56,533 nucleotides of DNA from an uncultured Caulobacteraceae bacterium (lineage in GTDB: Bacteria; Pseudomonadota; Alphaproteobacteria; Caulobacterales; Caulobacteraceae): the NCBI GenBank assembly GCA_903923135.1, contig CAIXWN010000264.1, positions 1 through 56,533 of the forward strand, in the 5' to 3' direction. Position 1 is the first letter of the stretch. Every line of letters starts with the position of its first letter. The position numbers were made by a program, and so were the translations under genes. Below, one piece after another: positions 33,036-50,662 of this stretch. The notes under the pieces were generated by a model. It did not search any database. It saw nothing but the letters and a program-made list of their open reading frames with translations, and was not told the origin of the DNA.

Positions 33036-36000
33036 TCAGACCGGGGCGCCCGGCAACCGCAACGGCGCTCGCGGCAGGATCGCGCCGTCACTCAGTACGG
33101 CGGTGGCCTCGCTCGCTGACAGGGGGAAGGCGAAGTAATAACCCTGCATCTCCTCGCAGCCCCAGGAGCGCAGAAGACTGCCCTGTTCCCGGGTCTCGAC
33201 CCCCTCGGCGACCACCCGCAGATTGAGGGCACGGGCCAGACCGATCGTGGCCTTGACGATCGCTTCGTTGCCGGGGGTGGCTCCCAGGTCCTTGACGAAG
33301 TTCTGATCGATCTTGATCCGATCCACCGGGAATCGGCGCAGGTAGTCCAGCGACGAGTAGCCCGTGCCGAAATCATCGATGGCGATGGCGAAGCCGCCCT
33401 GCCGCAGGCGAAGCAAGGTGCGGCTGTGTTCCAGGGAAGCCTCCATCAATACGGTCTCGGTCAGTTCGAGTTCGAGTCGGTCGGGCGTCCGCGCGTTGGC
33501 CCGAAGGGCCTGGGCGAGGTCACTCTCCAGTTCGCCCTGGGTCCTGAACTGCTGCCCTGACAGATTGATCGCCACCTGGGGAGGCTCCAGTCCCGCGTCG
33601 AGCCAGTCACGGATCTGCCGGCACGCCTCGTTCATGACCCAGCGGCCGAGCCCCACAGCCAGGCCGATCTGTTCAGCGATCGGGATGAATTCGGCCGGGC
33701 AGACGACGCCCCGCCCCTTGTGCCGCCACCGCACCAGGGATTCCAGGCCGATGATGCGGCCGGTCCCGGCGTCCACCTGGGGCTGATAGAGCAGGAAAAG
33801 GTCGCCCGACTCGATGGCGGACCGCAATTCGGCGCCCAGGGTCACCCGGCGGCGCACCTCGCGGTCCATGGCCTCGGTGAAGAAGCGGAAGGTGCCGCGA
33901 CCTTCCGACTTGGCGCGGTAAAGGGCGATGTCGGCGTAGGAGAGCACGGTCTCCGCATCCGGCGCGTCAGGACCGAAGACGGCGATGCCGACGCTGGTGC
34001 CGCTGCGCACGTCGTTGCCGTTGATCGAGAAGGGGCGGTTGACCGCCGTCAGCAGGCGTTCCGCCAGAATGGCCACCCCGGCCGGTTCGTGCACGTCCGT
34101 CGTGATCACCGCGAACTCGTCGCCGCCGAAACGGGCGACGGTGTCGGTGTCGCGCAGCGTCTCGCGCAGGCGCTCGCCCACGCCCTGCAGCAACTGATCG
34201 CCCACAGGGTGGCCGAGGGTGTCGTTGATATCCTTGAAATGATCCAGATCCAGGAACAACACCGCGAAGTTGCGACCCCAGCGGCGGGCGTCGGCGATCG
34301 CGCGCTCCAGCGCCTCCACGAAGCTCCACCGGTTGGGCAGTCCGGTCAGGCTGTCGAACCGCGCCGCCCGCACCAGATCCTGCTCGATGCGCTTCTGGTC
34401 GGTGACGTCGCGGGCAATGGCCGAGGCGCCGATGACCTTACCGGTCAGGTCCCGCGTGGGCGACACCACCAGGTCGACGATGATCCGCGAGCCGTCCTTC
34501 TTTACCCGTTCGGTCTCAAGCGACCGGACGTCCTCGCCGCGGGCGATGCGGGCGAGGATCCAGTCCACCTCGGCATGTCGCTCCTGGGGGATAACAAAGC
34601 GGATGTTTCGGCCGATAGCCTCGCCGGCGGCATAGCCGTAGACGTTCGCCGCGCCCTGGTTCCAGCTGGTGATCGTCCCGTCGAGCGCCTTGCCGACGAT
34701 CGCGTCGCGCGAGGATTCCACGATCGCCGCCAGCCGGTCGCGCGCCTGCCGGTCGCCAAGGGTGACCACGCCGAAGGCGATGTCGCTCGCGAGCTCCTCC
34801 AGCAGCCGGATCTCCTCGGAGCCGAAGGCGTCGGACTCGGCGGCGTAGATCGTCAGGACGCCGAACACCGCCAAGGCGTCGCGCAGGGGCAGCGAGATGC
34901 TCGACAGATAGCCGCGACTCAAGGCCGCCTCACGCCATGGCCCCATCTGCGGGTTCTGGTCCGAGGCGTGATTCACGCAGGTCGCGCCCTCGCGGATGGC
35001 CGAGCCGCCCGGCCCGCGGCCGCGCTCGTTGTCGGCCCAACTGAGCTTGAGGCCGCTGACATAGCCCTCGTCATGGCCGGCCACCGCAACCGGCCGCACA
35101 CTCCTGTCGGCGTCGTTCTCCGCCAGGCCTATCCACGCCATGCGATAGCCGCCCTGTTCGACGATCAGGTCGCACATGCGCTGATAGAGACCCTCGATGC
35201 TGGAGGCGCGGACCAGCGTCACATTGGCCCGGCTGAGGGTGTTCAGCGCCCGGACGGTGCGCTGAAGGGCCTGCTCGGCGCGCTTTCGCTCGCTGATGTC
35301 CCGGACGATGGCGGAAATGGCGATGGTCTCGCCGGTCTCGGCCCGGATCGGCGAGGCGACGATGGAGACGTTGATCACCGAACCATCCCTTGTCACCCGC
35401 TCGGTGTCCAGCCAGCTCAGGCCGCGGCCTCTCGCCAGACGCTGGCCCAGCATCTCCAGCTCGACCTGACGCTCGTCGGGAACGATGGCGCGGATGTTCT
35501 GCCCGATCATTTCCTCTGCGGGATAGCCGAAAAGGCGCTCCGCTCCGGGGTTCCAGGTGATGACCTTGCCTTCGAGATCCATGCTCAGAATGGCGTCCTG
35601 CGACGCCTCGACAATGGAGGCCAGGCGGGCCTTTTCCTCGCTGCCTTTCACCCGTTCGGTGATGTCGCGGAAGAACCAGACCCTTCCGCTGACCTTCCCG
35701 GGCGCAAGGACCAGAGGCGAGGAATGACGCTCGAAGGTTCGCCCATCCTTCAGGGCCATGACCTCGTGCCCAGACTCCAGGGGGTGCTCCTCAAGATAGT
35801 TCGTCTGCTGAAGGAATCCCTCCGCGTCGACAAGCTGGTCGTGAACCCAGGCGAGGGCCGCGTCCTGGTCCATCGTCCGGATCATCACCTCCGGAATGGA
35901 CCACATATCGAGAACGCGCTGGTTGAAGGAAACCCATCGATGAGTCTCGTCCTCCACCAGGATGCCGTCCGGAGACAGCTCCATCTCCGCGCGGAGCACG

Positions 36001-37430
36001 GCGGCGCTGGCGGCCGCCTCGGCCTCGATGCGCTGCCGCTCGGTGATGTCACGTATGATTAGCTGGCGCCAACGCTCGCCGTCCAGGATGAGACGACGGG
36101 CGCTGATCTCGACCGGGAATTCGCTGCCATCGCGGCGTCGGTGCAGGCTCTCGAACACGACGCCGCCGTCGGTGTCGCCCCCGTCGCCGCGGTCGTCCTC
36201 CCGTGACCCGGCCGCATGAAGCTCGGCCACGGGTCGTCCGACCAGTTCCTCATGGGCGTAGCCGTAGGCGGAGAGAGCCCGGTCGTTGGCTTCCACTATG
36301 CGTCCGTCGCCGTCCGTCAACAGGATGATGTCATTGGCGTATTTGCTGAGGGATTCGAAGCGTTGCTGCAGCTTGAGCCATTCGCTTTCGGCCCGGGCCC
36401 CGCGGGCGTCCTGGACGGCCTGCTGACGCCGCCACGCCGAGGTCAACAGCAATCCGGTTGAGGTCACCAGCCAGGTGACAACAAGAGACATGATCATCGC
36501 CAGACGGTTGGACGCGGCAGAGGCTTCGTCGAGGTCGATCTTCGACACCAGCCCCCAGGTCGTCCCTGGGATGCTGGCGGTGGCGGCGATGACCCGAACG
36601 CCGCTGTAGTCGAGGCCGGTCATCACCCGCTCGACGCCGGTGGCCGCCGCGGCGGCCGGCAATCCGTCGGAGAGGGGCTGTCGCAAGGGCCCCTTGTGGG
36701 CGGGGGCTCGCCTGGGCCGGCTGATCCAGACGACCTTGTCGCCGTCCCTGGCCACGATCAGGGTTTCGGCGCTGCCGCTTGCGCCGGGCCAGGATTCGAC
36801 CAGGGGAAACAGCCCGAGGGTCGGATCGACGGTCAGCACCGCGACGGCGACGACCCGGCCGCCGCCATCCGACGCAAGGGCGGGCGCGGCGATATGGATA
36901 TCCGTGTCCCCGGGACGCGCCGGATCCGGATGGGCGTTGGAGAACTGCAGCTGCCCGGTTTCCGCAACCCGGCGGATCATTGCGGCGAGGTCGGGGTCCG
37001 CCGGCCGGGGAAGAGCGCCCAGGCTGAGCAGAATCCGGCCTTTCGTGTCGGCCAGGGCCACGTCGCGGTAGCTGTCGTAGGCCATCAATGTCAGCAGTCG
37101 CTGGCGCAGATGCCGGGCGCGCTCATCCTGTGGGGCGCCGGCGCGTAGCCAGGTCTCGACGTCGCCGTCGATTGTCAGATCCTGGCCAAGGACCTTTGCG
37201 TCGCTCCGGCGCTCCGCGACCCAAACGGAGATCTCTCGCACCTTCAGGTGGCTGACCACCACGAGGGTGCTTTCGACGTTGCGTAACTGGGCGCGCCGCT
37301 CGGCGGACCACAGGGCGTAGCCGATGGCCATCACGGCCAGGGCGAAAGCGATGAACAGGGCCAGCGACCAGCGGAAGGTCGCCACCGCATCCCGGGGCCC
37401 GGTCACGCGATCCTGTCTACTCGGCCTCAT
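33036..37430 (-). CDS. Membrane multi-PAS/GAF GGDEF-EAL protein
   Basis: About 1464 residues from ATG 37430 (a TTG at 37496 is possible). Two membrane helices (FRWSLALFIAFALAVMAIGY near 20-40; LAMIMSLVVTWLVTSTGLLL near 310) bracket a periplasmic sensor. Then come three or four PAS domains, a GAF domain and another PAS. GGDEF follows with intact RFGGDEF (near 1098). The EAL domain reads ESL at the motif itself (near 1227) but keeps INLSGQQF, LELTETVL, IDDFGTGYSSLDYL and IKIDQNFV. Known: such proteins make and/or cleave c-di-GMP. Ser in place of Ala in EAL occurs in active members, so both activities are possible. Confidence 0.9.
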   Translation of the reverse strand: MRPSRQDRVTGPRDAVATFRWSLALFIAFALAVMAIGYALWSAERRAQLRNVESTLVVVSHLKVREISVWVAERRSDAKVLGQDLTIDGDVETWLRAGAPQDERARHLRQRLLTLMAYDSYRDVALADTKGRILLSLGALPRPADPDLAAMIRRVAETGQLQFSNAHPDPARPGDTDIHIAAPALASDGGGRVVAVAVLTVDPTLGLFPLVESWPGASGSAETLIVARDGDKVVWISRPRRAPAHKGPLRQPLSDGLPAAAAATGVERVMTGLDYSGVRVIAATASIPGTTWGLVSKIDLDEASAASNRLAMIMSLVVTWLVTSTGLLLTSAWRRQQAVQDARGARAESEWLKLQQRFESLSKYANDIILLTDGDGRIVEANDRALSAYGYAHEELVGRPVAELHAAGSREDDRGDGGDTDGGVVFESLHRRRDGSEFPVEISARRLILDGERWRQLIIRDITERQRIEAEAAASAAVLRAEMELSPDGILVEDETHRWVSFNQRVLDMWSIPEVMIRTMDQDAALAWVHDQLVDAEGFLQQTNYLEEHPLESGHEVMALKDGRTFERHSSPLVLAPGKVSGRVWFFRDITERVKGSEEKARLASIVEASQDAILSMDLEGKVITWNPGAERLFGYPAEEMIGQNIRAIVPDERQVELEMLGQRLARGRGLSWLDTERVTRDGSVINVSIVASPIRAETGETIAISAIVRDISERKRAEQALQRTVRALNTLSRANVTLVRASSIEGLYQRMCDLIVEQGGYRMAWIGLAENDADRSVRPVAVAGHDEGYVSGLKLSWADNERGRGPGGSAIREGATCVNHASDQNPQMGPWREAALSRGYLSSISLPLRDALAVFGVLTIYAAESDAFGSEEIRLLEELASDIAFGVVTLGDRQARDRLAAIVESSRDAIVGKALDGTITSWNQGAANVYGYAAGEAIGRNIRFVIPQERHAEVDWILARIARGEDVRSLETERVKKDGSRIIVDLVVSPTRDLTGKVIGASAIARDVTDQKRIEQDLVRAARFDSLTGLPNRWSFVEALERAIADARRWGRNFAVLFLDLDHFKDINDTLGHPVGDQLLQGVGERLRETLRDTDTVARFGGDEFAVITTDVHEPAGVAILAERLLTAVNRPFSINGNDVRSGTSVGIAVFGPDAPDAETVLSYADIALYRAKSEGRGTFRFFTEAMDREVRRRVTLGAELRSAIESGDLFLLYQPQVDAGTGRIIGLESLVRWRHKGRGVVCPAEFIPIAEQIGLAVGLGRWVMNEACRQIRDWLDAGLEPPQVAINLSGQQFRTQGELESDLAQALRANARTPDRLELELTETVLMEASLEHSRTLLRLRQGGFAIAIDDFGTGYSSLDYLRRFPVDRIKIDQNFVKDLGATPGNEAIVKATIGLARALNLRVVAEGVETREQGSLLRSWGCEEMQGYYFAFPLSASEATAVLSDGAILPRAPLRLPGAPV

Positions 37431-37565
37431 CGTCTGGCGCACCGCCCAGCGCCCCGTTCGCCGTCCATAACCACCGATGGTTGGTGGAAGATACAACAGA
37501 TCAGCAGTTTACCCCGGCCTTCCACAAGCTTGCCAGTCCGTTCACGGGATCTGCACGCCGCGCGA

Positions 37566-38900
37566 TCAGTATTGCGGCGCTTCAGGCGGCCGGACCCGGC
37601 CAGGGGGGCCCCGCGCGGCGTCCGGCGCGCTGTCGAAGAGCGGGAAGAACTGCCGGTCGCCCCGGAACAGATGCCGGGCGATCACCGCATTGACGAGGAA
37701 GTCCACCAGATCGCCGAGGGTCGCCCCGCCGCTGGCGACCGCCGCTTTCAGGTTGGTGGCGCGCGCCAGCAGGCTCGCGTGGGCGCGCTTGTGCGCCCTG
37801 AGGTCACCATAGCCCCGCACAGCCAGAATCGCCTCCTCGTCGCCGAAGTGGCGGGCGAGGTGCGCCAGCAGGGCGTCGAGCGGTGCGACGAGGGACTCGG
37901 CCGTCGCGCCCTCCCGGGCGGCCGCGTCGAACAGGGCGTTTCCCATTTCGAACAGGGTCCTGTGCTGGCTGTCGATGGTCGGCTCGCCGCACTCATAGGC
38001 CTCCCGCCAGATCAGCCGCACCGGAGCGCCGCCATCCTCCGCCGCCCATTCGTCGGAAGCGCCACGGGGATCGACCGTCACGCCGGCGGCGCTGGTCTTT
38101 GCCTGGTAGAGCGCCTCGTCCGCCCGACGGAACCAGATTTCCTGACTTTCACCGGCCACATATTCGGCGACGCCCAGGCTGATCTTCACCCGGCCGACCC
38201 CGGTGAATTCATAGGCCTCAACCTCCGCGGCGACCTTGGCGGCCATCACGGCGCCGTGACGCCGGTTGGTCTGTGGAGCCAGGATGACGAACTCGTCGCC
38301 GCCCCAGCGAAACAGGGTGTCACTCGACCGGACGGCGGCGGCGACCAGCTGAACCAGATCCCGCAGGACGCCGTCGCCAGCCAGATGACCGCAGCTATCG
38401 TTGACCTGCTTGAAGTGATCGACGTCCAGCATGATCAGCGTCACCGGCTGGCGGAAACGCAGGCTGCGATCCATCTCCGAAACGATCACCCCGTCGAAAT
38501 GACCGCGGTTCCACGCGCCGGTCAGGGGGTCGATGGCGCTGCGCCGCTCCAGGGTTTCGACCCGTGTGCGTAGCGCCTCCAGGGTGCTCAGCAGGGCGGG
38601 CTCGGCCATGTCGTCGAGGATCAGCGTCTGGAACCCCCGCCCACGGACGACCTGGGCCAGGACCTGCCGGCCATCCCTGGCGCCCGGGGCGGCGATCGTG
38701 GTCCAGCCGGCCGGAGGATCATTCAGCAGGGCCTGCAGGTCTGGCGCCACCAGCGCCGCCTCCCCGTAGAGATCGCTGAAACGGTCGTTCAGGATCAGCG
38801 GGCCGCCCGCTTCGTCCATCAGGGCGACGGGCAGCGGAAAGCGGGCAACCCAGTCGTGCAGCGTCGACAGGTCCAGCCATGCCAGGGCGTTCTGTTGCAA
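37566..38900 (-). CDS. Diguanylate cyclase with C-terminal bacteriohemerythrin domain
   Basis: The 444-residue protein has a PAS-like N-terminus, a GGDEF domain with intact WGGDEF (near 197) and MLDVDHFKQVNDSCGH, then a hemerythrin domain with all di-iron ligands: His in DSQHRTLF, H-x3-E in RHFGDEE, H-x3-H in HKRAH, and H-x4-D in RHLFRGD. TTG start at 38900 is preferred because no ATG/GTG lies nearer the N-terminal PAS-like part; a purine-rich GGGGAAG precedes it. Known: related GGDEF-hemerythrin proteins adjust c-di-GMP synthesis to oxygen or redox state. Cytoplasmic. Confidence 0.9.
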   Translation of the reverse strand: MQQNALAWLDLSTLHDWVARFPLPVALMDEAGGPLILNDRFSDLYGEAALVAPDLQALLNDPPAGWTTIAAPGARDGRQVLAQVVRGRGFQTLILDDMAEPALLSTLEALRTRVETLERRSAIDPLTGAWNRGHFDGVIVSEMDRSLRFRQPVTLIMLDVDHFKQVNDSCGHLAGDGVLRDLVQLVAAAVRSSDTLFRWGGDEFVILAPQTNRRHGAVMAAKVAAEVEAYEFTGVGRVKISLGVAEYVAGESQEIWFRRADEALYQAKTSAAGVTVDPRGASDEWAAEDGGAPVRLIWREAYECGEPTIDSQHRTLFEMGNALFDAAAREGATAESLVAPLDALLAHLARHFGDEEAILAVRGYGDLRAHKRAHASLLARATNLKAAVASGGATLGDLVDFLVNAVIARHLFRGDRQFFPLFDSAPDAARGPPGRVRPPEAPQY

Positions 38901-40714: not shown

Positions 40715-40891
40715 ATGAGCGGCCCCAACGGAAAGTGGCAATGCCCGGTCTGCGGCGAAATCTATGACGAGGCCCTGGGCGATCCGGAGGCTGGCGCTCC
40801 GCCGGGAACCCGGTTCGAGACGCTGCCGGCCGGCTGGCTCTGCCCCGCCTGCGGGGCCGCCCACGACAGCTTCGCTCCCTACGCACCATGA
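40715..40891 (+). CDS. Rubredoxin
   Basis: Fifty-eight residues with two CxxCG knuckles (QCPVCGEIYDE and LCPACGAAHDSF) and the linking GAPPGTRFETLPAGW, all diagnostic for rubredoxin. It follows the P450 fragment by 10 bases. Known: rubredoxins carry single electrons through a Fe(Cys)4 centre to alkane hydroxylases and some P450s or oxygen-reducing proteins. Probably the intact electron donor of the former P450 operon. Confidence 0.9.
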   Translation: MSGPNGKWQCPVCGEIYDEALGDPEAGAPPGTRFETLPAGWLCPACGAAHDSFAPYAP

Positions 40892-40936
40892 TTCAGCGCG
40901 CGCAAGGCTGACAGCCTGACCTGATGAAACCAAGCG

Positions 40937-41024
40937 GGAAAGGCGAAACGCCCCGGGCCTTACGGACCGGGGCGTCCCTGACATCGGCTTTCCCCGGGGG
41001 GGGCTGGAGGGTCGGCGGCGATGC
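40937..41024 (-). ncRNA. Predicted FNR/FixK-controlled small RNA, copy A
   Basis: Predicted +1 at 41024 (GCATCGC), terminator hairpin at 40948-40975 and T-rich tail to about 40937. The body matches copies B and C almost base for base: a CCCTCCAGCC segment, a C-run, GGGGAA and GCCGATG, then the terminator stem. A CCCUCC motif can pair with Shine-Dalgarno sequences. Upstream lie a -10-like CAATTT (41031-41036), exactly 21 bases and the FNR-type box 41058-41071. Prediction from three-way comparison within the window. Confidence 0.72.
40948..40975 (-). terminator. Intrinsic terminator of small RNA copy A
   Basis: Nine-pair stem ACGCCCCGG/CCGGGGCGT, followed on the minus strand by TTCGCCTTTCC. 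Confidence 0.65.
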
Positions 41025-41057
41025 CCCCCCAAATTGCCCGGCCCTGCGACGGGCGCT

Positions 41058-41071
41058 TTGATCCAGGTCAA
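41058..41071 (-). promoter_or_regulatory. FNR/FixK-type box, copy A
   Basis: Minus strand TTGACCTGGATCAA, a TTGAC-N4-ATCAA palindrome. Centred near -40.5 relative to predicted +1 at 41024, the class II activator position. Confidence 0.75.
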
Positions 41072-41144
41072 AAGATTCGCGATCATCGAAAGGAATGTCG
41101 CGGCCTTCGGCCGATGGCGCGAGAACGGCGCAACGCAGCGGCCG

Positions 41145-41230
41145 GAAAAGCGAAACGCCCCGGACATTGCTGCCCGGAGCGTTCCTCGCATCGGCCTTCC
41201 CCGGGGGGGCTGGAGGGTTGGTTGCGACGC
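41145..41230 (-). ncRNA. Predicted FNR/FixK-controlled small RNA, copy B
   Basis: Predicted +1 at 41230 (GCGTCGC), ending in a terminator at 41155-41182 plus CTTTT. The body keeps CCCTCCAGCC, the C-run, GGGGAAGGCCGATGCGAGGAACG and the terminator. Its terminator arm has a T in place of C that pairs as G-U only if the minus strand is transcribed. The -10-like CATGGT is at 41237-41242, 21 bases from the box at 41264-41277. It lies 121 bases upstream of copy A's box-to-body unit in tandem, and back to back with phnW. Confidence 0.74.
41155..41182 (-). terminator. Intrinsic terminator of small RNA copy B
   Basis: Stem ACGCTCCGG/CCGGGGCGT on the minus strand with one U-G wobble, followed by TTCGCTTTT. 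An outer A-T pair extends it to ten pairs. Confidence 0.68.
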
Positions 41231-41263
41231 CCCATCACCATGTCAGAGCCATCGGGGCCTACA

Positions 41264-41277
41264 TTGATTCAGGTCAA
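41264..41277. promoter_or_regulatory. FNR/FixK-type box, copy B, possibly serving both directions
   Basis: Minus strand TTGACCTGAATCAA. It sits at the class II position for copy B. On the plus strand a TATTTC (41298-41303) lies 20 bases away, so it could also act on phnW (ATG 41329). Confidence 0.72.
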
Positions 41278-41328
41278 ATGCAGGGGGGCCGCGGGCGTAT
41301 TTCGTCAGCGGGTGACAAGGAACCTACC

Positions 41329-42441
41329 ATGCAAGATCCGACACTGTTGACGCCTGGACCGCTGACGACCTCCCTGGCCACCCGGATGGCCATGCTGCGG
41401 GACTGGGGGTCGTGGGACGGCGCCTTCAACGCCCTGACGACGTCGGTGCGTCGCGACCTGGTCGAGATCGTCAACGGCGCCGCGGACCATGTCTGCGTCC
41501 CGCTACAGGGCAGCGGCACCTTCGCCGTGGAGGCCGCGCTCGCCACCCTGGTCCCGAGGTCCGGCCGGGTTCTGGTCCCGGACAACGGAGCCTACTGCAA
41601 ACGCATCGTCCGCATCCTGGACCGGCTGGGCCGCGAGGCGGTGGCGCTGGCGCAAAGGGAGGACACGCCAGCGGACCCGGCGCGGATCGACGCCGCCCTG
41701 GCCGCCGACCCTGGCATCACGCATGTGGCGCTGGTGCATTGCGAGACCGGCACAGGCATTCTCAACCCCCTGCCCCGGATCGCCGCCGTGGTCGCCGCGC
41801 GCGGCCGTCGCCTGATCGTCGACGCGATGAGTTCCTTCGGCGCCCTGCCGATCGACGCCGCGACCCTGCCTTTCGACGCCCTCGTCTCGGCGTCGGGCAA
41901 ATGCCTCGAGGGTGCTCCGGGTATGGGGTTCATCATCGTGCGGCGGACGGCCATAGAGGCGGCGGCGGGCCAATGCCCATCCCTGGTTCTGGATCTCCAC
42001 GACCAGTGGACCTACATGGAGGCCACCGGTCAGTGGCGCTTCACGCCCCCCACCCATGTGGTCGCGGCCCTCCGGTCGGCGCTGGACCAGCACCGCGCCG
42101 GGGGCGGCCAGCCCGGACGTCTGGCGCGATATGCCGCCAACTGCGCCGCTCTGGTCGACGGCATGCGCGAACTGGGATTCCGCAGCTTTCTCGACGATTC
42201 CGTCCAGGCGCCGATCATCGTCACCTTCCTGGCGCCGGCGGACCCGGCCTATGACTTCGGCGAGATGTACCGGCGCGTGCGCGACATGGGCTTCATGCTC
42301 TATCCGGGAAAACTCACCGAGGCCGACACCTTCCGCGTCGGCTGCATCGGCGACATCGACGCCCACGGGCTTCGGCGGGCGGTCGCCGCCATCCGTGACA
42401 GCCTCACAGCCATGGGCGTGCGGACCTTCTCGCCCGCCTGA
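41329..42441 (+). CDS. phnW: 2-aminoethylphosphonate-pyruvate transaminase
   Basis: The 370-residue class V aminotransferase begins [10 protein letters not shown] with RDWGSWD shortly after, the PhnW signature. The PLP lysine is in SASGKCLEG (Lys191), and [14 protein letters not shown] and [13 protein letters not shown] are typical. Length matches the family. AAGGA precedes ATG 41329. Known: it converts 2-aminoethylphosphonate plus pyruvate to phosphonoacetaldehyde plus alanine. No phnX, phnY/phnA or phosphonate transporter is adjacent, so the downstream steps must be encoded elsewhere. Confidence 0.92.
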
Positions 42442-42557
42442 GGTCGGAGCAGGCGTCAAGAGGGGTCGACATCTGGGCAGAGGCCTGTTCGCGCGCCGCG
42501 GGCCGGCGCTCCCGCCCCCGGGAGGGGCGCGGAACCTCTGCTTGAGGCCCTGTCGCT

Positions 42558-43355
42558 TTAGGGGGGCGGGCGTCCGTTCGTCTGAGACAGCACATCCCGC
42601 CGCAGTTCGAAGTCGGCGGCGTAGAAGCGCTCGACGAACGCCCGCAATTCGCGATCGGCGCTGATCTTGGCGTAGAAGCCGCCCTTGGAGATCAGGCCGG
42701 CGCGCTGCAGGCGCAGCAGAAACGCCTCCCTCTGTTGCCATGTGGTAAGGCGTCCGTAGATCGGCTTGAAGCGGTGGAACACCCGCGTCCACCGGTTGGA
42801 CGGCGCGAGATTGGCGTTTCTGGCGCGGCTGAAATCCAGCGGCAGTCCCGTGCGCGTCCGCAGTTCGGCTTCGAGCCCGGCGAGATCCTCGAACGCGAAA
42901 AGCCGGTTCACGATCCGCTCGCCTCGAAAGTCGGTGAACTCGACCTGGGGAAGGAAGTGCGCATATTCCGGGCGCTCCGCCGGGACCGGGGCCAGGAGCC
43001 AGACCTGCAACCGCCGCGTCTCGGCCACAACGTGCTCGTGTGTCACCTCGAAGCGCGAGATCCCCCTGTGTTCCCAGAGCCGATGGATTGTCGCGGACAC
43101 GAACCTCTGGAATGGATCGCGAACGACCGCATAGGCGTCGTAGGCGCGGACCTTTTCGAACACATCCGGGAAATGTTCGGCGAGGGTCTCCGGGGTCAGA
43201 TGCCCGAACCACTGCCGGGGCAAAGCACCGAACGCCTTGTCCTCGTTGAAGAAGTTCGCATAGGAATCGATGGGCTCAAGTTGGGTCCTGACGGTGGTCC
43301 CGGCGTTCTTGGGGATGTGCACGAACGCGACCCGGTGGGCGTCACTGACGATCAT
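42558..43355 (-). CDS. Sulfotransferase family protein
   Basis: The 265-residue protein has the 5'-phosphosulfate loop FVHIPKNAGTT near the N-terminus and the 3'-phosphate motif VVRDPFQRFVSA about 70 residues later, the order seen in carbohydrate sulfotransferases (Sulfotransfer_2 type). Known: these transfer sulfate from PAPS to sugars. Acceptor unknown; surface polysaccharide is a reasonable guess. It is convergent with phnW. Confidence 0.82.
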   Translation of the reverse strand: MIVSDAHRVAFVHIPKNAGTTVRTQLEPIDSYANFFNEDKAFGALPRQWFGHLTPETLAEHFPDVFEKVRAYDAYAVVRDPFQRFVSATIHRLWEHRGISRFEVTHEHVVAETRRLQVWLLAPVPAERPEYAHFLPQVEFTDFRGERIVNRLFAFEDLAGLEAELRTRTGLPLDFSRARNANLAPSNRWTRVFHRFKPIYGRLTTWQQREAFLLRLQRAGLISKGGFYAKISADRELRAFVERFYAADFELRRDVLSQTNGRPPP

Positions 43356-43563
43356 GGTTCCAGCCCCAGCCCCCTCGGGTCTCTTCGGCCTCGCTGGCGA
43401 GTCCGGGCGCGGCGTGGGTGGACCCCAACGTCGCGCGGTCGGGCTTGACGGCGGCGATGAGTCTATCGGCGACGGTTGTCAGGGTGAAGGGCTTCGAGGC
43501 GTCGCAATGGTCGCAGTCACGCCAATCGGGTGAGATCGCGGGCGGGGACGGGATACCGCGGGC

Positions 43564-44922
43564 TCACGCGCTCCAGTCGACGCGCAGATCGTCGGCGTAG
43601 ATCAGCGCGCCACCGGCCAGGTCGCGGTAGCTGATCCTGAGGCCACCCGGGATCGGGGTCTGCATGATCTGCCAGGCCCGAGGCAGGCGCGCGCTCATCG
43701 GCCCGGTGAAGTGGCGGGGCGGGCGCTCGAACACCAGCCGATAGTCCCAGCGCTGGCGGAAATGCTCCCACCAGGCGTTCTGCGGTCGCCAGCGCGGATC
43801 ATCGCGCTCGTGGTGGAGGATATCGGCTGGCAGCCAGCCCATGCCGTCGATCCAGATCTCGGCCCAGCTGTGGTTCGCAGGGCAGAGGCGCGAGAGATAA
43901 TGCCCCGAGACCGTCCGCGCCGGGAGGCCGTGGGCGCGGCACAGGGCCACAAGCAGGGCGGCGGCGAGGCGGCAGTCATAGGCCCGATGATCGAGGCTCC
44001 ACTCGCAGGGCGAAACACCCTCCACGTCGTCGCAGCGCAGGCTGCGGAAGTGGAACCCGTCGACGAGGAAGCTCCAGAAGGCCGCGACCGCCTCCAGCGG
44101 CGGCGCCCCGCGCGCCAGACGTCCGGCAAGGTCGACGATGCGCGGCGTGACCCCGATCAGATCCTCGAACGGGCGAAGGTGCGCCTCGCGGTCGGCCCCG
44201 CTCAGCCTCCCGGCCTCGTCGCCAGGCGCGGGCGGGACCGCCGTGAACGTGATGTCCGCGCCGAGGATCAGGCCTGGGTCGTCCGGCGCGCGCAGGCGGA
44301 CCTCCATGCGCCCCTCAGCGCAGCTCACCAGGCCGTCGAGGCCCGGGGGCAGGATCGGGGTGACCGCGATGGCCTGGTGGTAGGCGCTCGGCAGGGGAGT
44401 GGGCAGGCGCAGGCGCAGGGGCGTTCCCGGCGCGAAGCGGGCCAGGTCGAAGCGCCGGCTCAGGCGAAGCCGGAACCGGGTGGGCGCTGGCTCGAGGTCC
44501 TTGCCCGCCGACCGTTCGCCCGCGCGGGTGGAGGCGACATAGGTCCGGCGGGCCGTGGCCGGGCGGTCCCGCCAGAGCGGATCGCGGCCGGTCTCTGCAA
44601 GCCACTCGAGCAGATCCTCAACCTCGATGAAGTCGAACAGCCGACCGCCACGGGCGTCCCGGGCGAACCCCGCTCCCGCCGCCAGGGCGAGACCGAGCGC
44701 CCGCGCGGCGCCGGCTCGGGCTTCGCCCGCCCGCCCGTCGGCGAGTTCGCCCGGCCAGCCGTCGAGGGCCAGTCTGGCCAGGATGTCCGCCTCGGGGACG
44801 CAGCGGTGGCGCGGATCGCGGGCGGGCCGCGGGGGCGGTGAGCGGCGAGGTTCGCGTGAAATGAGGGATCTCCCCAGGATGGCGCCGGGTAGTGTACCTG
44901 AGCGGCCGGCCGGAGGCTCCAT
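43564..44922 (-). CDS. Transglutaminase-like cysteine protease-fold protein
   Basis: About 452 residues from ATG 44922. The start is uncertain: ATG 45000 and an ATG at 45054 inside small RNA copy C are also in frame, but the terminator of that RNA lies between 45054 and this gene. The C-terminal half has a transglutaminase core with Cys in AYDCRLAAALLVALCRAHGLPAR, His in NHSWAEIWIDG and Asp in WLPADIL. The N-terminal half is Arg/Pro-rich with a beta-rich middle. No signal peptide at 44922. Role unknown. Confidence 0.8.
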   Translation of the reverse strand: MEPPAGRSGTLPGAILGRSLISREPRRSPPPRPARDPRHRCVPEADILARLALDGWPGELADGRAGEARAGAARALGLALAAGAGFARDARGGRLFDFIEVEDLLEWLAETGRDPLWRDRPATARRTYVASTRAGERSAGKDLEPAPTRFRLRLSRRFDLARFAPGTPLRLRLPTPLPSAYHQAIAVTPILPPGLDGLVSCAEGRMEVRLRAPDDPGLILGADITFTAVPPAPGDEAGRLSGADREAHLRPFEDLIGVTPRIVDLAGRLARGAPPLEAVAAFWSFLVDGFHFRSLRCDDVEGVSPCEWSLDHRAYDCRLAAALLVALCRAHGLPARTVSGHYLSRLCPANHSWAEIWIDGMGWLPADILHHERDDPRWRPQNAWWEHFRQRWDYRLVFERPPRHFTGPMSARLPRAWQIMQTPIPGGLRISYRDLAGGALIYADDLRVDWSA

Positions 44923-45005
44923 GCCGCCGGACAGGGCGGTCGCCAGCGGGCGGCGATCGGAGGCAGGACCGCCGGTGAGAAGCCAGCCGAAGATCGCCAT
45001 GCATC

Positions 45006-45093
45006 GGAAACAGCGAAACGCCCCGGGCCTTTCGGACCGGGGCGTTCCTCGCATCGGCCTTCCCCGGGGGGGCTGGAGGGTCGGCGGCGACGC
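45006..45093 (-). ncRNA. Predicted FNR/FixK-controlled small RNA, copy C
   Basis: Predicted +1 at 45093 (GCGTCGC), terminator at 45018-45045 and T-rich tail to about 45006. It matches copies A and B over the whole predicted transcript but not between the box and the -10 region, so conservation follows the transcript. The -10-like CATGTT is at 45100-45105, 21 bases from the box at 45127-45140. It occupies the gap between the sensor-kinase stop and the transglutaminase gene. Confidence 0.74.
45018..45045 (-). terminator. Intrinsic terminator of small RNA copy C
   Basis: Stem ACGCCCCGG/CCGGGGCGT (ten pairs with the outer A-T), followed on the minus strand by TTCGCTGTTTCC. Confidence 0.66.
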
Positions 45094-45126
45094 CCAGCCA
45101 ACATGCCGGAGCGGCCGGGCGCCGTA

Positions 45127-45140
45127 TTGATCCGGGTCAA
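45127..45140 (-). promoter_or_regulatory. FNR/FixK-type box, copy C, overlapping the kinase stop codon
   Basis: Minus strand TTGACCCGGATCAA. The TGA stop of the upstream sensor kinase (45137-45139) is part of the box. Same 21-base distance to the -10-like hexamer as copies A and B. Confidence 0.74.
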
Positions 45141-46486
45141 TTTTCCCGCGGCGATTTCTGGAATTCGTCGATGGACGCGGTCGTCTCGGCGTGCAGGTCC
45201 AGAACGAAGATGGCCCCGCCGCCGGGGGCGTTGCCGGCCATCACCTGCCCCCCATGGTTGGTGATGATCGTGCGCACGATTTCCAGGCCCAGGCCGGCCC
45301 CGGCCGTGTCGCCCGATCGCTTGCGCCAGAAACGGTCGAAGATGCGACTGGTGTCCCCCGGCTCGAGGCCGGGCCCGTGGTCCCGCACCGAGAGGATCGG
45401 ACCCGGCCCGACCGCGATCTCGATCCCCGGGGCCGACCCGCCATATTTCATGGCGTTGTCGATCAGATTGGTCAGGGCGCGTCCGAGGGCGTCGGCGTTG
45501 CCGACGATCTGATACGGGCCCCCGCGTTCGACGAACTCCAGCTCGCGACCCTGCGACAGAGCCACGGGGACCATGCGCGAGACGATCTGTCTTGCCAGAT
45601 CGTCCAGATCGAGCCGCTCGCTTCCCTCGATGGTCAGGGCCTCGGCGTGGGCCAGATCGAGCAGTTGGTTGACCAGGCGCGTCATGCCGACAAGGTCGAG
45701 CTCGAGCTGCTCGCGCAGGTCCTGTGGCTCCACTTCGGCGACCGCCAGCTTGAGCACCATGATCGGATTGCGCAGCTCATGGGCCACCTGAGCGGTGAAC
45801 CCGTGTAGTTTATCGATCGCCAGATCCATGCGCTCCAGGGCGCGGTTGAAACCTTCCACCAGAGCGCGGACCTCGCGCGGGGCGGGGGGCTCGCTCAATC
45901 GCTGGCCCGGCGCCTTGGGCGACAGACCGTCCACCTCGCGGACGGCCTTTCTCAGAGGCGCGAGCAGTCGCCGCACGGCGTTGGTGATGAACAGGTAAAG
46001 CAGCGCCACCAAGGGGACGAGCGGACCGACCAGATGGTCGCCCAGTTCCTTCAGGATCGCCGGCGCGTAGGGCGTCAGACCGTTGACAGTGAACGCCATG
46101 CGGACCCAGCGGGTCTGTTCCGCGGCTCCATCGCTGCGCACGCCGGAAATCCTCACGCCGCCGGGCGTGACGTCCCGACGGGTCCACGACAGCAGGCCCG
46201 GCGATCCGGCGCCGCCGTCAGGGCCCTCCGGCGGCCGGGCGTACAGGGTCAAGTCCCAGGCCTCGACGCCGTACGGGGGCGGCAGGCTGGCGAGGGCGGC
46301 CGGTCGCGCGGCGAAGACGCGGGCGGCCTCGAGGTCGACCAGATCCTGACCCAGCCCGTCCAGGTCGGTGGCGTAAAGGCCGATCACCATCAGCGCCTCG
46401 ACGACGACGAAGAGCACCAGCATCAGGGCCAGTCTCGAAGCGATCTGCCGGAAGAGGCTGGGAACGCCGGGCCGCACGCGGTTCAT
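45137..46486 (-). CDS. Membrane sensor histidine kinase
   Basis: The 449-residue protein starts at ATG 46486, overlapping the regulator stop by one base (TGATG). Helix 1 (LALMLVLFVVVEALMVIGLY) and helix 2 (LVGPLVPLVALLYLFITNAV) enclose a periplasmic sensor of about 140 residues. A HAMP-like linker leads to HisKA (VAHELRNP, His near 236) and HATPase (NLIDNAMKYGG, VRDHGPGL, GAGLGLEIV). EnvZ/QseC-like arrangement, paired with the OmpR-type regulator directly upstream. Stimulus unknown. Confidence 0.9.
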   Translation of the reverse strand: MNRVRPGVPSLFRQIASRLALMLVLFVVVEALMVIGLYATDLDGLGQDLVDLEAARVFAARPAALASLPPPYGVEAWDLTLYARPPEGPDGGAGSPGLLSWTRRDVTPGGVRISGVRSDGAAEQTRWVRMAFTVNGLTPYAPAILKELGDHLVGPLVPLVALLYLFITNAVRRLLAPLRKAVREVDGLSPKAPGQRLSEPPAPREVRALVEGFNRALERMDLAIDKLHGFTAQVAHELRNPIMVLKLAVAEVEPQDLREQLELDLVGMTRLVNQLLDLAHAEALTIEGSERLDLDDLARQIVSRMVPVALSQGRELEFVERGGPYQIVGNADALGRALTNLIDNAMKYGGSAPGIEIAVGPGPILSVRDHGPGLEPGDTSRIFDRFWRKRSGDTAGAGLGLEIVRTIITNHGGQVMAGNAPGGGAIFVLDLHAETTASIDEFQKSPREN

Positions 46487-47169
46487 CAGGCGCCCTCGTC
46501 GTTGACCGTCAGAATATAGCCTATGCCGTGAACGGCGCGCAGCTGCAGCGCGGCGCCGGCGTCGTTCAGGCGACGCCTCAGGCGTGAGACCGTGGCGTCC
46601 AGGGCGTTGGGACTCACCGCCTCGTCCATCGAGTAGAGCGATTGTTCGAGCGCCGGGCGGGCGATCACCTGGCCGCACCGGCGCATCAGGATCTCCAGCA
46701 GCGCAACTTCGCGGCGACGCAGATCGATCGCTTCGCCCGAGACCCTGACCTGCCGGCTCGCCGGATCGAGCGCCACATTGCCCGCCGTCAACGCCAGGTC
46801 GAGAGTCTGGCTGGGCCGGCGCAGCAGGGCGCGGCAGCGCGCCGCCAGTTCGCCCATGTCGAACGGCTTCACCAGATAGTCGTCCGCGCCGGAATCCAGC
46901 CCCTCGATACGATGGTGCGGACTGTCCTGCGCGGTGAGCACGAGCACCGGCGTGGCCTGGCGCAAGGCGCGGATGGTCTTCAGCAGCAACAGCCCCTCGC
47001 CGTCCGGCAGCCCCCGGTCGAGGACGATCAGGTCGTATTCGGCGAGCCGGCAGGCCTCCTCGCCCTCAGCCAGGCTTCCCACCCGGTCGACCGAATAGCC
47101 CAGCCGCTCAAGCTCCCGGCGAATCAGGCTCGCCAGCCGCTCATTGTCCTCCACGAGCAGAAATCGCAT
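46486..47169 (-). CDS. OmpR-family response regulator
   Basis: The 227-residue protein opens MRFLLVEDNERLASLI, with phosphoacceptor Asp in LIVLDRGLPDGEG, Lys in YLVKPFD, and a winged-helix DNA-binding domain ending VHGIGYIL. It resembles the QseB/PmrA branch. A direct-repeat site for this class of regulator lies about 50 bases upstream (47220-47237), suggesting autoregulation. It precedes and overlaps the kinase gene. Confidence 0.92.
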   Translation of the reverse strand: MRFLLVEDNERLASLIRRELERLGYSVDRVGSLAEGEEACRLAEYDLIVLDRGLPDGEGLLLLKTIRALRQATPVLVLTAQDSPHHRIEGLDSGADDYLVKPFDMGELAARCRALLRRPSQTLDLALTAGNVALDPASRQVRVSGEAIDLRRREVALLEILMRRCGQVIARPALEQSLYSMDEAVSPNALDATVSRLRRRLNDAGAALQLRAVHGIGYILTVNDEGA

Positions 47170-47237: not shown

Positions 47238-47422
47238 AACTCAATGCTATCCCCCACCGCCATAAGCCGCCTCTCTCAGTCGCTTTGAGTATCACCATCG
47301 TCGAATTGCCACAGTATTGCCTCATTGTGTTTTCGCCGCCGGCGACAGGCTGAGGGTTTTCTTGAATTTCTTCCGACCAGTGATCTGGATCGGGAACTAT
47401 ATTTCCGGGATTGGAGACCTTG

Positions 47423-50400
47423 ATGACGTCAGTGAACTGGACCAACGCGATCAGCGGTGACTGGGCGAATGCCGCCAACTGGACCGGCGGCGTCCCCACG
47501 GCCGCGACCGATGCGGTCATCGACGCGGCCGGCGCCTATCAGGCCACCCTATCGACGACGGTTTCGGCCAAGTCCCTCACTCTGAACGCCGTAGGCGCCA
47601 CGTTTCTCGACAGTGGCAGCCTCAACCTGGGCGGGCCGCTCAACATATCGGCCGGAACGTTCAACCTCGACGCCGCCGGCAGTCTGGGGTGGTCTTCGGG
47701 CGCGGGCCTGATCAATCTGGCTGGCGGCGCCACCCTACAGGCCACCGGAACCCACACCCTCGACAATGTGCAGATCAGCATGGGCACGCCATCGGTGGGA
47801 TTCGCCGTCCTGTCGTTTGACAGCCTGACCCTCGGCGCCAGCGGCGCCGTCTCGTTCGTCGGCGGCGGCGCCTCGGCCACCAGCGCCTTCCAGGAAATCA
47901 CCGGGACCAGCCTGACCAACAACGGCGTCATCCAGGCGACCCAGGACTATGCCTGCGGGCTGATCTACGCCACCACCCTGGTCAACAACGGCTCGCTGAT
48001 CAACGCCAGCGCCTCCGGCTACACCGTCGAGGCGAACGACTTCACCAACACCGGCCTGATCAGCGCGTCGAACAATGGTGGCATCGGCATCAGCGGGTTC
48101 AACAGTTTTACCAACACCGGCGTGATCAACGACAGCGGCGGCGTCGCCATCTCTTCGCCGAACTTCGTCAACAACGGCGTCATCAACATCAGCGGCGCCA
48201 ACGACTATCTGTCCATCGACGCCCCCATGGGCGCCGCGCCGGGCTCGCCGCTGCAGACGATGAGTGGCACGGGTTCGATCAATGTCGCCGGAACCGGCGA
48301 CACGCTACAGTTCGTCCAGAGCCAGACCATTGGCCAGGGGACCATCAACCTGACCGGAACGGGCGAGCAGTTCATGGTCGTCAGCGCCGCGACCAATGCG
48401 CCTGGCGGATCGGTCGGCGCCACCGTCACCCTGGGCGCCGGGGCGACCATAAACCAGACCTCCGGCACGGCCACCATCGGGGCCTCGGCCGGCGGCCCCG
48501 GCCTCACCGACAACTTCGTCAATGACGGCGCGATCAACCTTTCGGCGGCCGGCGGCTCCCTGACCGTGTCGACCACCGGCTTCACCAACAACGGTGTCGT
48601 CACCGTCTCCAACGGCGATCACCTGGTGATCCAGACCGCCCTTGACGGCTCCGGCGTCCTCGCCCTGGCGACGGGCGGCGTGGTCGAGGTCGCCGCCGCG
48701 GCGGCGGCCAGCGATCAGGTCACCTTCAACGACAGTCAGAACAACCTTTTGAAGCTGGATGCGGCCTCAAGCTTCGCCGCCGTGATCAACGGATTCGCCA
48801 AGGGCGACGCCATCGACCTGACCGCGCTCTCCGCGACGGCGGCCACCTGGAGCAACGGCGTGCTGGCCGTCAGCCTCGCCGGCGGCGGCGTCCTCGACCT
48901 CAACATGGCCGGCGCCTACGCCGGAACCACCTTCAACGTCGCCAGCGACAATGCCGGCGGTTCGCTGATCACCATCGGCACGGTCGGCGCGCCCCCGCCC
49001 CCGCCGCCTCCGCCGCCGCCAGGCGTGCTCGCCGGGTCGTTCGGCCTCGGACCGGTCGCCGAAGGCGTGGCGACCAGCGGCGCCGTCGCCAGCTTCACCG
49101 ACAGCAACGCCGCGGACGCCGCCGCCGGCTTCACCGCCCAGATCACCTGGGGAGATGGCTCCACCAGCGCCGGCGTCGTCAGTGGATCCAACGGCCAGTT
49201 CTCGGTCTCCGCCCCCGCAGGCCACGTCTTCGCCGCCGAGGGAACCTACGCCGCCTCGGTGCTGGTCACCCGCACGGCCGACAGCGCCCAGCTCACCGTC
49301 TCCGGGTCTGTCACGGCCACCGAGGCCGACGTCTTCGCCGTCAAGAGCGCTCCGGCCCTGGCGGCCACGGCCGGGCAGGCCTTCTCCGGAACCGTCGCCA
49401 CCTTTACCGACGCCTACGCGGCCAACACCGCCGCTGACCTGGCCGCCACCATCACCTGGGGTGACGGCACGACCAGCGCCGGGGTCGTCTCCATGAACGG
49501 CGGCGTGGTCTCGGTGTCCGGCGGCCACACCTACGCCGCCGCGGGAACCGACGCGGTGTCGGTCACCCTTAGCGACAAGGACGGCGCGGCGACGGCGACG
49601 GCCGGCGGAACCGCCGTCGTCGCGGCCGGCGGATCGACCGGCGGATCGTCGGGCGGCAAGACCTACACCCTGACCACCAAGATCGACAAAGTGGCCGGCG
49701 GCGCGGGCGACGATCTCATCGTCGCGGCGGCCAACACCCTGAGCAAGAGCGACGTGATCGACGGCGGCGCGGGCGCCAACACCCTGCAGCTGTCCGGCGG
49801 CGGCGTCTTCAACCTCGCCCTGCCGACCACCCTGACCAACGTGCAGACGCTCAACGTCCAGGAGGGCGCCGGCGCCGGCCTGGAAACCGTCACCCTGCGC
49901 AAGGGACTCAACCTGACCGTGAATGTCGCCAGCAGCGCCGCCCCCGGCGCCGGCGTCACCATCGTCGGCGCGGCGGACTCCAGCATCATCAACCTGGGCG
50001 CGGGGGCCGATGTGGTCACCCTCGGCTCGGCCACCGAGACCGTCCATGGCGGCGGCGGCGCCGACACCTTCAACGTCAAGGCCGCCACCATCGGCGCCAC
50101 CATCGACGGCGGGACCGGGGCCAGCACCCTGGTGGTCAGCGGCGGCGGCAAGGTGAAAATGGGCGCCAACATAACCAACATCGCCACGGTCAATCTGTCG
50201 GCGGCGGGCTCGGCCTGGAATTTCACCGCCAACGCCATCGCCGGCCTGGTCGTCAACGACCTCAGCGCCGGCAACGCCGACCAGATCCACGCCGGCGCCG
50301 CCGGCCAGACCCTCACGGGGGGCTCGCACGACCAGACCTTCTTCGGGTTCGGCAGCGGCGTGACCACCTATGCGGACACCGCCGCCCAGTTCAACGGCTC

Positions 50401-50662
50401 GTCGATCAAGAGCTTCAGTTCGGGCGACGTCATCGACATCGCCGGTCTCGCCTTCGGGGCCCAGACCAAGGTGACGATGAACCCGTCGGGCGCGACCAGC
50501 GGCGATCTGAACATCACCGTCAACGGCGTGCTCCAGGCCCAGGTCCACGTCTTCGGTCAGTTCGTCGCGTCCAGTTTCTCGGCCGCCTCCGACGGCCATG
50601 GCGGCACGCTGATCACCGACCGCCCGCAGGCGGCGCCCGTGCTGGCGGCGGCGACCCACTGA
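47423..50662 (+). CDS. Large repetitive secreted/surface protein, probable type I secretion substrate
   Basis: 1079 residues from ATG 47423 (GGAG six bases upstream). No signal peptide. Residues 1-520 are beta-helix-like repeats rich in NNG, FTNNGVI and GSL, opening WTNAISGDWANAANWTGGVP. A run of ten prolines (near 524) leads to two Ig/PKD-like repeats with ITWGDG(S/T)TSAGVVS, then an RTX-like region (GGAGDDLIVAA, GGGGADTFNV) and a C-terminal IKSFSSGDVIDIAGL block. Known: such C-termini are common on type I secretion substrates. No transporter gene is nearby. Probably an adhesin or matrix protein. Confidence 0.8.
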   Translation: MTSVNWTNAISGDWANAANWTGGVPTAATDAVIDAAGAYQATLSTTVSAKSLTLNAVGATFLDSGSLNLGGPLNISAGTFNLDAAGSLGWSSGAGLINLAGGATLQATGTHTLDNVQISMGTPSVGFAVLSFDSLTLGASGAVSFVGGGASATSAFQEITGTSLTNNGVIQATQDYACGLIYATTLVNNGSLINASASGYTVEANDFTNTGLISASNNGGIGISGFNSFTNTGVINDSGGVAISSPNFVNNGVINISGANDYLSIDAPMGAAPGSPLQTMSGTGSINVAGTGDTLQFVQSQTIGQGTINLTGTGEQFMVVSAATNAPGGSVGATVTLGAGATINQTSGTATIGASAGGPGLTDNFVNDGAINLSAAGGSLTVSTTGFTNNGVVTVSNGDHLVIQTALDGSGVLALATGGVVEVAAAAAASDQVTFNDSQNNLLKLDAASSFAAVINGFAKGDAIDLTALSATAATWSNGVLAVSLAGGGVLDLNMAGAYAGTTFNVASDNAGGSLITIGTVGAPPPPPPPPPPGVLAGSFGLGPVAEGVATSGAVASFTDSNAADAAAGFTAQITWGDGSTSAGVVSGSNGQFSVSAPAGHVFAAEGTYAASVLVTRTADSAQLTVSGSVTATEADVFAVKSAPALAATAGQAFSGTVATFTDAYAANTAADLAATITWGDGTTSAGVVSMNGGVVSVSGGHTYAAAGTDAVSVTLSDKDGAATATAGGTAVVAAGGSTGGSSGGKTYTLTTKIDKVAGGAGDDLIVAAANTLSKSDVIDGGAGANTLQLSGGGVFNLALPTTLTNVQTLNVQEGAGAGLETVTLRKGLNLTVNVASSAAPGAGVTIVGAADSSIINLGAGADVVTLGSATETVHGGGGADTFNVKAATIGATIDGGTGASTLVVSGGGKVKMGANITNIATVNLSAAGSAWNFTANAIAGLVVNDLSAGNADQIHAGAAGQTLTGGSHDQTFFGFGSGVTTYADTAAQFNGSSIKSFSSGDVIDIAGLAFGAQTKVTMNPSGATSGDLNITVNGVLQAQVHVFGQFVASSFSAASDGHGGTLITDRPQAAPVLAAATH

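Follow-up and report, generated by a model that had tools for sequence, protein, structure and literature searches.

A multicopy family of putative small RNA genes under a shared FixK-type box in an uncultured Caulobacteraceae bacterium

On contig CAIXWN010000264.1 of an uncultured Caulobacteraceae bacterium, analysed here as a single stretch of 56,533 nucleotides (nt; henceforth the window), three copies of a compact unit were found on the minus strand (40940-41071, 41148-41277 and 45010-45140). Each unit consists of a 14-nt palindrome (TTGAC-N4-ATCAA), a 33-nt stretch with a -10 hexamer, and a predicted RNA of about 84 nt that contains a C-rich segment and a terminator. The whole is probably best explained as a FixK-induced, multicopy, trans-acting small RNA (sRNA) that acts via its C-rich loop. 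An earlier note on this DNA had proposed an sRNA gene family at this place, and the comparison between species supports it well, at a length of about 84-88 nt and with a box of the CRP/FNR superfamily upstream.

The copies that the note had placed at 40937-41024, 41145-41230 and 45006-45093 of the minus strand proved real, both by BLASTN and by a repeat search, which returned three window copies with start-to-start spacings of 206-207 and 3863 nt. When copy 3 (136 nt) was compared by BLASTN with the organism's own genome (G000), the other two window copies were matched at E = 9.3e-31 and 1.5e-29 and a fourth copy appeared on contig C119 (G000:C119:2684-2820, E = 6.6e-22), the next match having an E value of only 0.012. 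Among 60 relatives, BLASTN also recovered units in the genomes G009 and G015. A covariance model built from these first six units (R1) picked up three that it had not seen, namely a fifth own-genome copy on contig C181 (57.5 bits) and units in G002 (49.4 bits) and G014 (41.7 bits); the best match after the nine units was an ordinary terminator at 38.5 bits, with G014 only 3 bits above it. R1 made no use of the box spacing or the synteny of the G002 and G014 units, which are therefore independent of the R1 finding. The own genome thus holds five copies in all, four with intact boxes and the fifth diverged, and the other carriers (G002, G009, G014 and G015), all of the same genus, hold one unit each.

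A second, full-unit model (R2) was built from all nine units, so that their own R2 scores (94-139 bits) are high by construction and the independent recovery of G002, G014 and copy 5 is that of R1. The best listed non-unit match of R2 reached 39.5 bits in the family (390 genomes) and 36.3 bits in the class (385 genomes). Genomes with a match at E <= 0.01 numbered 37 of 390 for R1, and 237 of 390 (family) and 37 of 385 (class) for R2; matches below the nine units were taken as terminators and not as members. No perfect box was seen by eye in R1 matches L056-L080 or by a box scan in the fourteen R2 matches L141-L154, six of which contain a box-like string with two mismatches. Weak BLASTN matches in G010, G022, G026, G034 and G035 (the best, 1.2e-6 in G026, to a terminator; the others about 1e-4 to 1e-3) represent no unit. 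A contig scan that demanded a perfect box plus CCTCCAGCCCC, and is hence blind to diverged members and may leave out own-genome records, gave seven matches, of which those in G009 and G015 are real and five were judged by eye to be due to chance. G013 was likewise dismissed, having no box at the place in question.

What is kept among the units is the box, the -10 region and the RNA. Mean pairwise identity over the nine units (shuffled control in brackets) is 0.78 (0.47) in the box, 0.69 (0.43) in the -10 region, 0.76 (0.52) in the 5' domain and 0.74 (0.50) in the terminator, as against 0.56 (0.51) in the spacer and 0.42 (0.38) in the six bases before the predicted +1; the flanks score 0.50 (0.49) over 60 nt upstream and 0.50 (0.50) over 60 nt downstream. 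Conservation is therefore confined to box, -10 and RNA, and lies at or near the shuffled level elsewhere, bearing out the sharp drop in similarity upstream of +1 that the note had described. Its account of the RNA itself holds less generally: the supposedly common 5' end GCGTCGC reads GCATCGC in copy 1, and GGGGAAGG, given as part of a common body, is literal in only two of the nine units. The palindrome TTGA-N6-TCAA is perfect in seven of the nine, with one mismatch in G014 and three in copy 5, and in the -10 hexamer C36, A37 and T41 never vary. Wherever the box is recognisable, in eight units, no gap interrupts the alignment from there to an invariant GC at position 48, which places the axis of the box at -40.5; it is this alignment that attests a constant spacing, the 33 nt printed for the fixed-length unit cuts being fixed by construction. 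For Bradyrhizobium diazoefficiens nosR, the part of PMC5582078 available to us gives a FixK-type box with its axis 40.5 bp from the mapped start. Judged by sequence, each unit would possess a promoter of its own and an intrinsic terminator, as is expected of a trans-acting sRNA.

RNAalifold, applied to box, spacer and RNA of all nine units, predicts an outer stem that begins at the predicted +1, an inner stem and the terminator. Changes on both sides occur at 6 of the 23 pairs of this shared structure, and 96.6% of the cells of the RNAalifold alignment pair in it. Out of 500 shuffles, none reached the observed paired percentage, double-change cells or covariation score, one reached the number of double-change pairs and six the pair types. 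The paired share in slid controls is 31-54%, in a comparison that favours a structure derived from that same alignment, and with the first six units alone and a hand-written structure the signal was weak (14 to 396 of 500 shuffles matched the observed values). With nine related sequences, the predicted conservation of secondary structure is supportive, not proof. Minimum-energy folds of single RNAs mostly match the consensus. Terminators of this GC-rich type are widespread in the bacterial family, so the evidence for the unit rests on the box, the -10 and the 5' domain. That the RNA encodes a small protein is the least probable of the explanations that we weighed: an ATG is found in six of the nine units, and its frame is alike for 14-15 codons in the three window copies, as expected of near-identical DNA, but the ATG sits in the outer stem, is followed by a stop after two codons in copy 4 and G009, and is missing from G015, G002 and G014, so that the units have no start codon in common.

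The genomic surroundings indicate that the unit is old and inherited, since the same S9-peptidase gene precedes it in four genomes. In the C119 copy, G009, G002 and G014 the box starts 16-48 nt past the stop codon of this gene, and the peptidases of the carriers with the unit behind are 75-78% identical to that of the own genome. The peptidase was detected (E <= 1e-40) in 13 of 40 genomes, the own one included, with the unit behind it in four and absent behind it in nine. Seven of these nine are from the same genus (peptidase identity 63-68% in six, 49% in one), and four of the nine have a box-like string with two mismatches within 420 nt of the peptidase. Apart from the four units, no place near the peptidase genes scored more than 18.3 bits with the unit model. 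From this synteny, found in four of the 13 peptidase genomes, we think that a single ancestral locus was probably gained or retained by one clade, and that an expansion in the own genome then probably produced copy 3, the tandem pair and copy 5, which is now decaying.

The presence of five copies in the own genome, two of them in tandem, and a G015 copy that shares no neighbour gene with the others compared are features that a dispersed mobile repeat without function of its own (of the repetitive extragenic palindromic or miniature inverted-repeat transposable element type) could also display. Such an origin is highly improbable given a common locus in four species and the retention of box, -10 and RNA stems amid a spacer and flanks at or near the shuffled level. 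Little better can be said of the units as leaders or attenuators that act in cis on the genes that follow. Copy 3 does end about 9 nt ahead of a possible start codon (45000) of a transglutaminase-like gene on the same strand, but copy 2 runs into copy 1, which itself faces a rubredoxin gene of the opposite strand, the neighbours differ between the C119, G015 and window copies, and every RNA ends in a terminator hairpin of its own; we hold this explanation to be very unlikely.

As to the protein that reads the box, the note had pointed to FNR and inferred control by oxygen or redox state. The box does belong to the CRP/FNR superfamily, but FixK appears the more likely activator. Contig C9 of the own genome carries genes for a FixL-like kinase, FixJ (297 bits, above the curated cut-off of 255) and a protein of the CRP family that among NCBIfam models best fits that of Caulobacter FixK, and a FixK-type box lies upstream of fixK. 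Sites with the palindrome number 37 in the own genome, against one for the reversed control, and the genes behind the 23 of them that were inspected include bchE (792 bits, cut-off 481) and one with a CxxCH haem motif, the latter read from the translation only; many of the 23 have no clear low-oxygen gene behind. The half-sites fit the FixK/FnrN consensus TTGANCNNGATCAANG taken from the portion of PMC4999443 at hand, which also lists Caulobacterales as having FixK and no FnrN. These genes, the box before fixK, the ratio of sites and the reported lack of FnrN in the order together favour FixK over FNR, and the genome would encode a cognate regulator for a promoter of the FixK/FNR class. Another CRP-family regulator, such as FtrB or a CRP homologue, might read the box instead, in which case the signal would not be oxygen via FixLJ. 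An FtrB match was obtained for a second protein (301 bits, cut-off 211), whose own gene is preceded by a box (G000:C207, L122), and a PF13545 search gave ten candidate regulators, four above the cut-off; against them stand the fit of the half-sites to the FixK/FnrN consensus and the boxes before fixK and bchE, and we find such a regulator improbable.

Two observations concern these regulators and sites more generally. The FtrB-like regulator gene on C207 lies about 1 kb from ubiU, a gene of anaerobic ubiquinone synthesis. The bchE gene with its FixK-type box is located within G000:C223:55500-60500 (L126), and the organism may make bacteriochlorophyll.

The note had assigned the C-rich segment a CCUCC-type anti-Shine-Dalgarno motif. 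This holds for six of the nine RNAs and not for all, and in most predicted folds the C-run lies in the loop and part of CCUCC is paired in the inner stem; CAGCCCCC is present in seven of the nine. The C-run is C8 in copy 1 and C7 in copies 2 and 3. As five or more consecutive C occur in all nine RNAs, mostly in the loop, we think that the C-run would be the primary contact, with CCUCC as an extension where present. Pairing partners were sought in two ways. In the own genome, GGGGGCTGGAGG with at most one mismatch is found 101 times and the reversed pattern 48 times, an excess that the common codons CTG GAG could explain; of the five perfect matches, four are sRNA copies and one falls in a gene read as nuoF from its translation. 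The pattern GGCTGGAGG-N3-10-ATG has 18 matches in G000, 13 in G009, 9 in G015, 14 in G002 and 12 in G014 (counts that include the opposite strands of sRNA units, two in G000 and one in G009, and one G000 place twice), and 6, 20 and 14 in the non-carriers G003, G010 and G011. With 0-4 matches for the reversed pattern in each of the eight genomes, there is an excess in carriers and non-carriers alike, as ordinary Shine-Dalgarno-like sequence would give. A check of the genes covered 15 of these places in G000, 12 in G009, 8 of 9 in G015 and none in G002 and G014; among the 22 open frames of at least 80 amino acids (aa) behind them one protein recurs, in G000 (L226) and G015 (L252) with 92% identity, and is a candidate target, no more.

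That no mRNA target stands out in these searches would also fit a sponge, a low-oxygen-induced RNA whose C-rich loop titrates either G-rich RNAs such as other sRNAs or an RNA-binding protein. The presence of several copies in the genome would suit this role, and the accessible part of PMC12559287 describes how CrfA of Caulobacter crescentus sponges four siblings. We consider it unlikely here; no G-rich partner RNA is known in the own genome, although no search for one was made.

Returning to an sRNA that pairs with mRNAs, we infer transcription, FixK control, a response to oxygen, pairing and repression from what was computed, i.e. the unit with its conservation, structure and synteny, and the genes for FixL-like, FixJ, FixK-like and Hfq proteins (an Hfq gene is present in the own genome). 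Each unit would be a free-standing sRNA gene. At low oxygen FixL would phosphorylate FixJ, which would turn on fixK, and FixK would then bind the TTGAy-N4-rTCAA box centred at -40.5 and bring RNA polymerase to the -10 hexamer. The transcript, some 84-88 nt ending at the intrinsic terminator, would fold its 5' domain into an outer stem from the first nucleotide on and an inner stem exposing a pyrimidine loop that ends in five to eight C. This loop would pair, probably together with Hfq, with mRNAs at G-rich stretches that probably lie near ribosome-binding sites, and so lower the translation or stability of mRNAs from genes unneeded in low oxygen, while the extra own-genome copies would raise the dose or allow the siblings to diverge. 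Going further, and only as a tentative suggestion that could well fail, the units may form a FixK-controlled regulon of sibling sRNAs that recognises G-runs via the exposed C-run and not via a classical CCUCC, giving FixLJ-FixK a post-transcriptional repressing arm. If this is true, FixK, mainly described as a low-oxygen activator, gains a negative arm in the way that FnrS provides one to FNR in Escherichia coli, and the five paralogues, from near-identical to decaying, make a natural series for the multiplication and divergence of co-regulated sibling sRNAs.

A number of results weigh against this picture. Just 5 of the 16 same-genus genomes carry the unit, absence in the others being soft, as many of these genomes are fragmented or incomplete and the covariance searches used stricter filters. 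The FixK-like (240 bits, cut-off 300) and FixL-like (573 bits, cut-off 850) proteins fall below their NCBIfam cut-offs, and the box of copy 5, with its three mismatches, was located by counting back from the RNA, i.e. with the spacing assumed. Copy 1 makes a different inner hairpin, the minimum-energy fold of copy 5 differs altogether from the shared one, and among the six RNAs tested singly the folding energy was unexceptional for copy 1 (z -1.3, 22 of 200 shuffles as low) and G015 (z -1.9, 13 of 200). The U-tails are short (mostly GCGTTT) and not ideal for Hfq, and CCUCC is lost in three of the nine units. On the side of the targets, the five carriers (9-18 matches) show no enrichment in GGCTGGAGG-N3-10-ATG over the three non-carriers (6-20), and nuoF was rejected, as the five carriers do not keep its site any better than nine non-carriers do (14 genomes) and equal or stronger pairing is reached by 41 of 1742 sampled windows.

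Neither an sRNA under oxygen control nor a C-rich sRNA in several copies is a new kind in itself. Rfam had no family that matched the whole window (gathering score), 40800-45300 (E up to 5) or any of six related loci. As FnrS has an Rfam model, the same searches point to no homology with it at these thresholds. On the proposed reading the units would work like FnrS without demonstrated relatedness: as described in PMC8139620, the E. coli sRNA is anaerobic, has an activator of the CRP/FNR superfamily and represses mRNAs that can be spared without oxygen. The units differ from it in being multicopy and in having FixK rather than FNR as the putative activator. SisA-D/alphaR8 of C. crescentus (MmgR in Sinorhizobium meliloti) are, in an extract of PMC12559287, four sibling sRNAs of one Caulobacteraceae member with an anti-Shine-Dalgarno stretch and a terminator, which according to the same extract lack a common upstream motif; the units described here, by contrast, share one box at one spacing. 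Membership of alphaR8 is ruled out by its core UUUCCUCCCU, which is missing from all nine RNAs and from the window. CcsR of Rhodobacter is another RNA with several copies and C-rich anti-Shine-Dalgarno loops. These two traits are also ascribed to the alphaR14 or cuckoo RNAs (NfeR1) in the consulted portions of PMC3927594 and PMC7143759. The loop sequence CCUCCUCCC of that family is absent from all nine RNAs, which have one C-rich loop and not three, and with no Rfam match either this membership is ruled out too. The Qrr sRNAs of Vibrio, several homologous sRNAs under common control in the excerpt of PMC12559287, have another regulator and signal, and are likened by description and not by RNA sequence. 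The apparent novelty is an RNA family that has no known relatives and whose siblings stand under one FixK-type box at one spacing; in the literature searched, mostly open-licence papers and these in part, we found no description of a FixK-controlled sRNA in Caulobacteraceae.

Features of the three window units. Positions are those of the window; the last column gives remarks and, for hexamers and hairpins, the source of the assignment.
Feature	Position	Strand	Sequence	Remarks
Copy 1 FixK/FNR box	41058..41071	-	TTGACCTGGATCAA	axis 40.5 bp before the predicted +1
Copy 1 -10 hexamer	41031..41036	-	CAATTT	alignments
Copy 1 predicted sRNA	40940..41024	-		about 85 nt, +1 at 41024
Copy 1 C-rich segment	40996..41011	-	CCCTCCAGCCCCCCCC	
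Copy 1 terminator hairpin	40945..40978	-		predicted fold
Copy 2 FixK/FNR box	41264..41277	-	TTGACCTGAATCAA	
Copy 2 -10 hexamer	41237..41242	-	CATGGT	alignments
Copy 2 predicted sRNA	41148..41230	-		about 83 nt, +1 at 41230
Copy 2 C-rich segment	41203..41217	-	CCCTCCAGCCCCCCC	
Copy 2 terminator hairpin	41152..41185	-		predicted fold
Copy 3 FixK/FNR box	45127..45140	-	TTGACCCGGATCAA	contains stop codon of upstream histidine kinase gene (45137-46678)
Copy 3 -10 hexamer	45100..45105	-	CATGTT	alignments
Copy 3 predicted sRNA	45010..45093	-		about 84 nt, +1 at 45093
Copy 3 C-rich segment	45066..45080	-	CCCTCCAGCCCCCCC	identical to that of copy 2
Copy 3 terminator hairpin	45015..45048	-		predicted fold

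The box of copy 2 lies 51 nt upstream of the start (41329) of a phnW-like gene on the opposite strand (2-aminoethylphosphonate-pyruvate transaminase, 568 bits). On that side a TATTTC at 41298-41303, spotted by eye, is near -10 distance from the box, and the palindrome might activate transcription in both directions.

Elsewhere in the window, an open frame of 1083 aa, which contains a run of prolines and matched nothing in Pfam, occupies 47411-50662, and the rubredoxin gene is a short one (40715-40888) behind a P450 gene. A large PAS/GAF/GGDEF/EAL protein of 1486 aa is encoded at 33036-37496, and 37566-38900 encodes a diguanylate cyclase that carries a hemerythrin domain at its C-terminus and may be an oxygen-binding enzyme of cyclic di-GMP.

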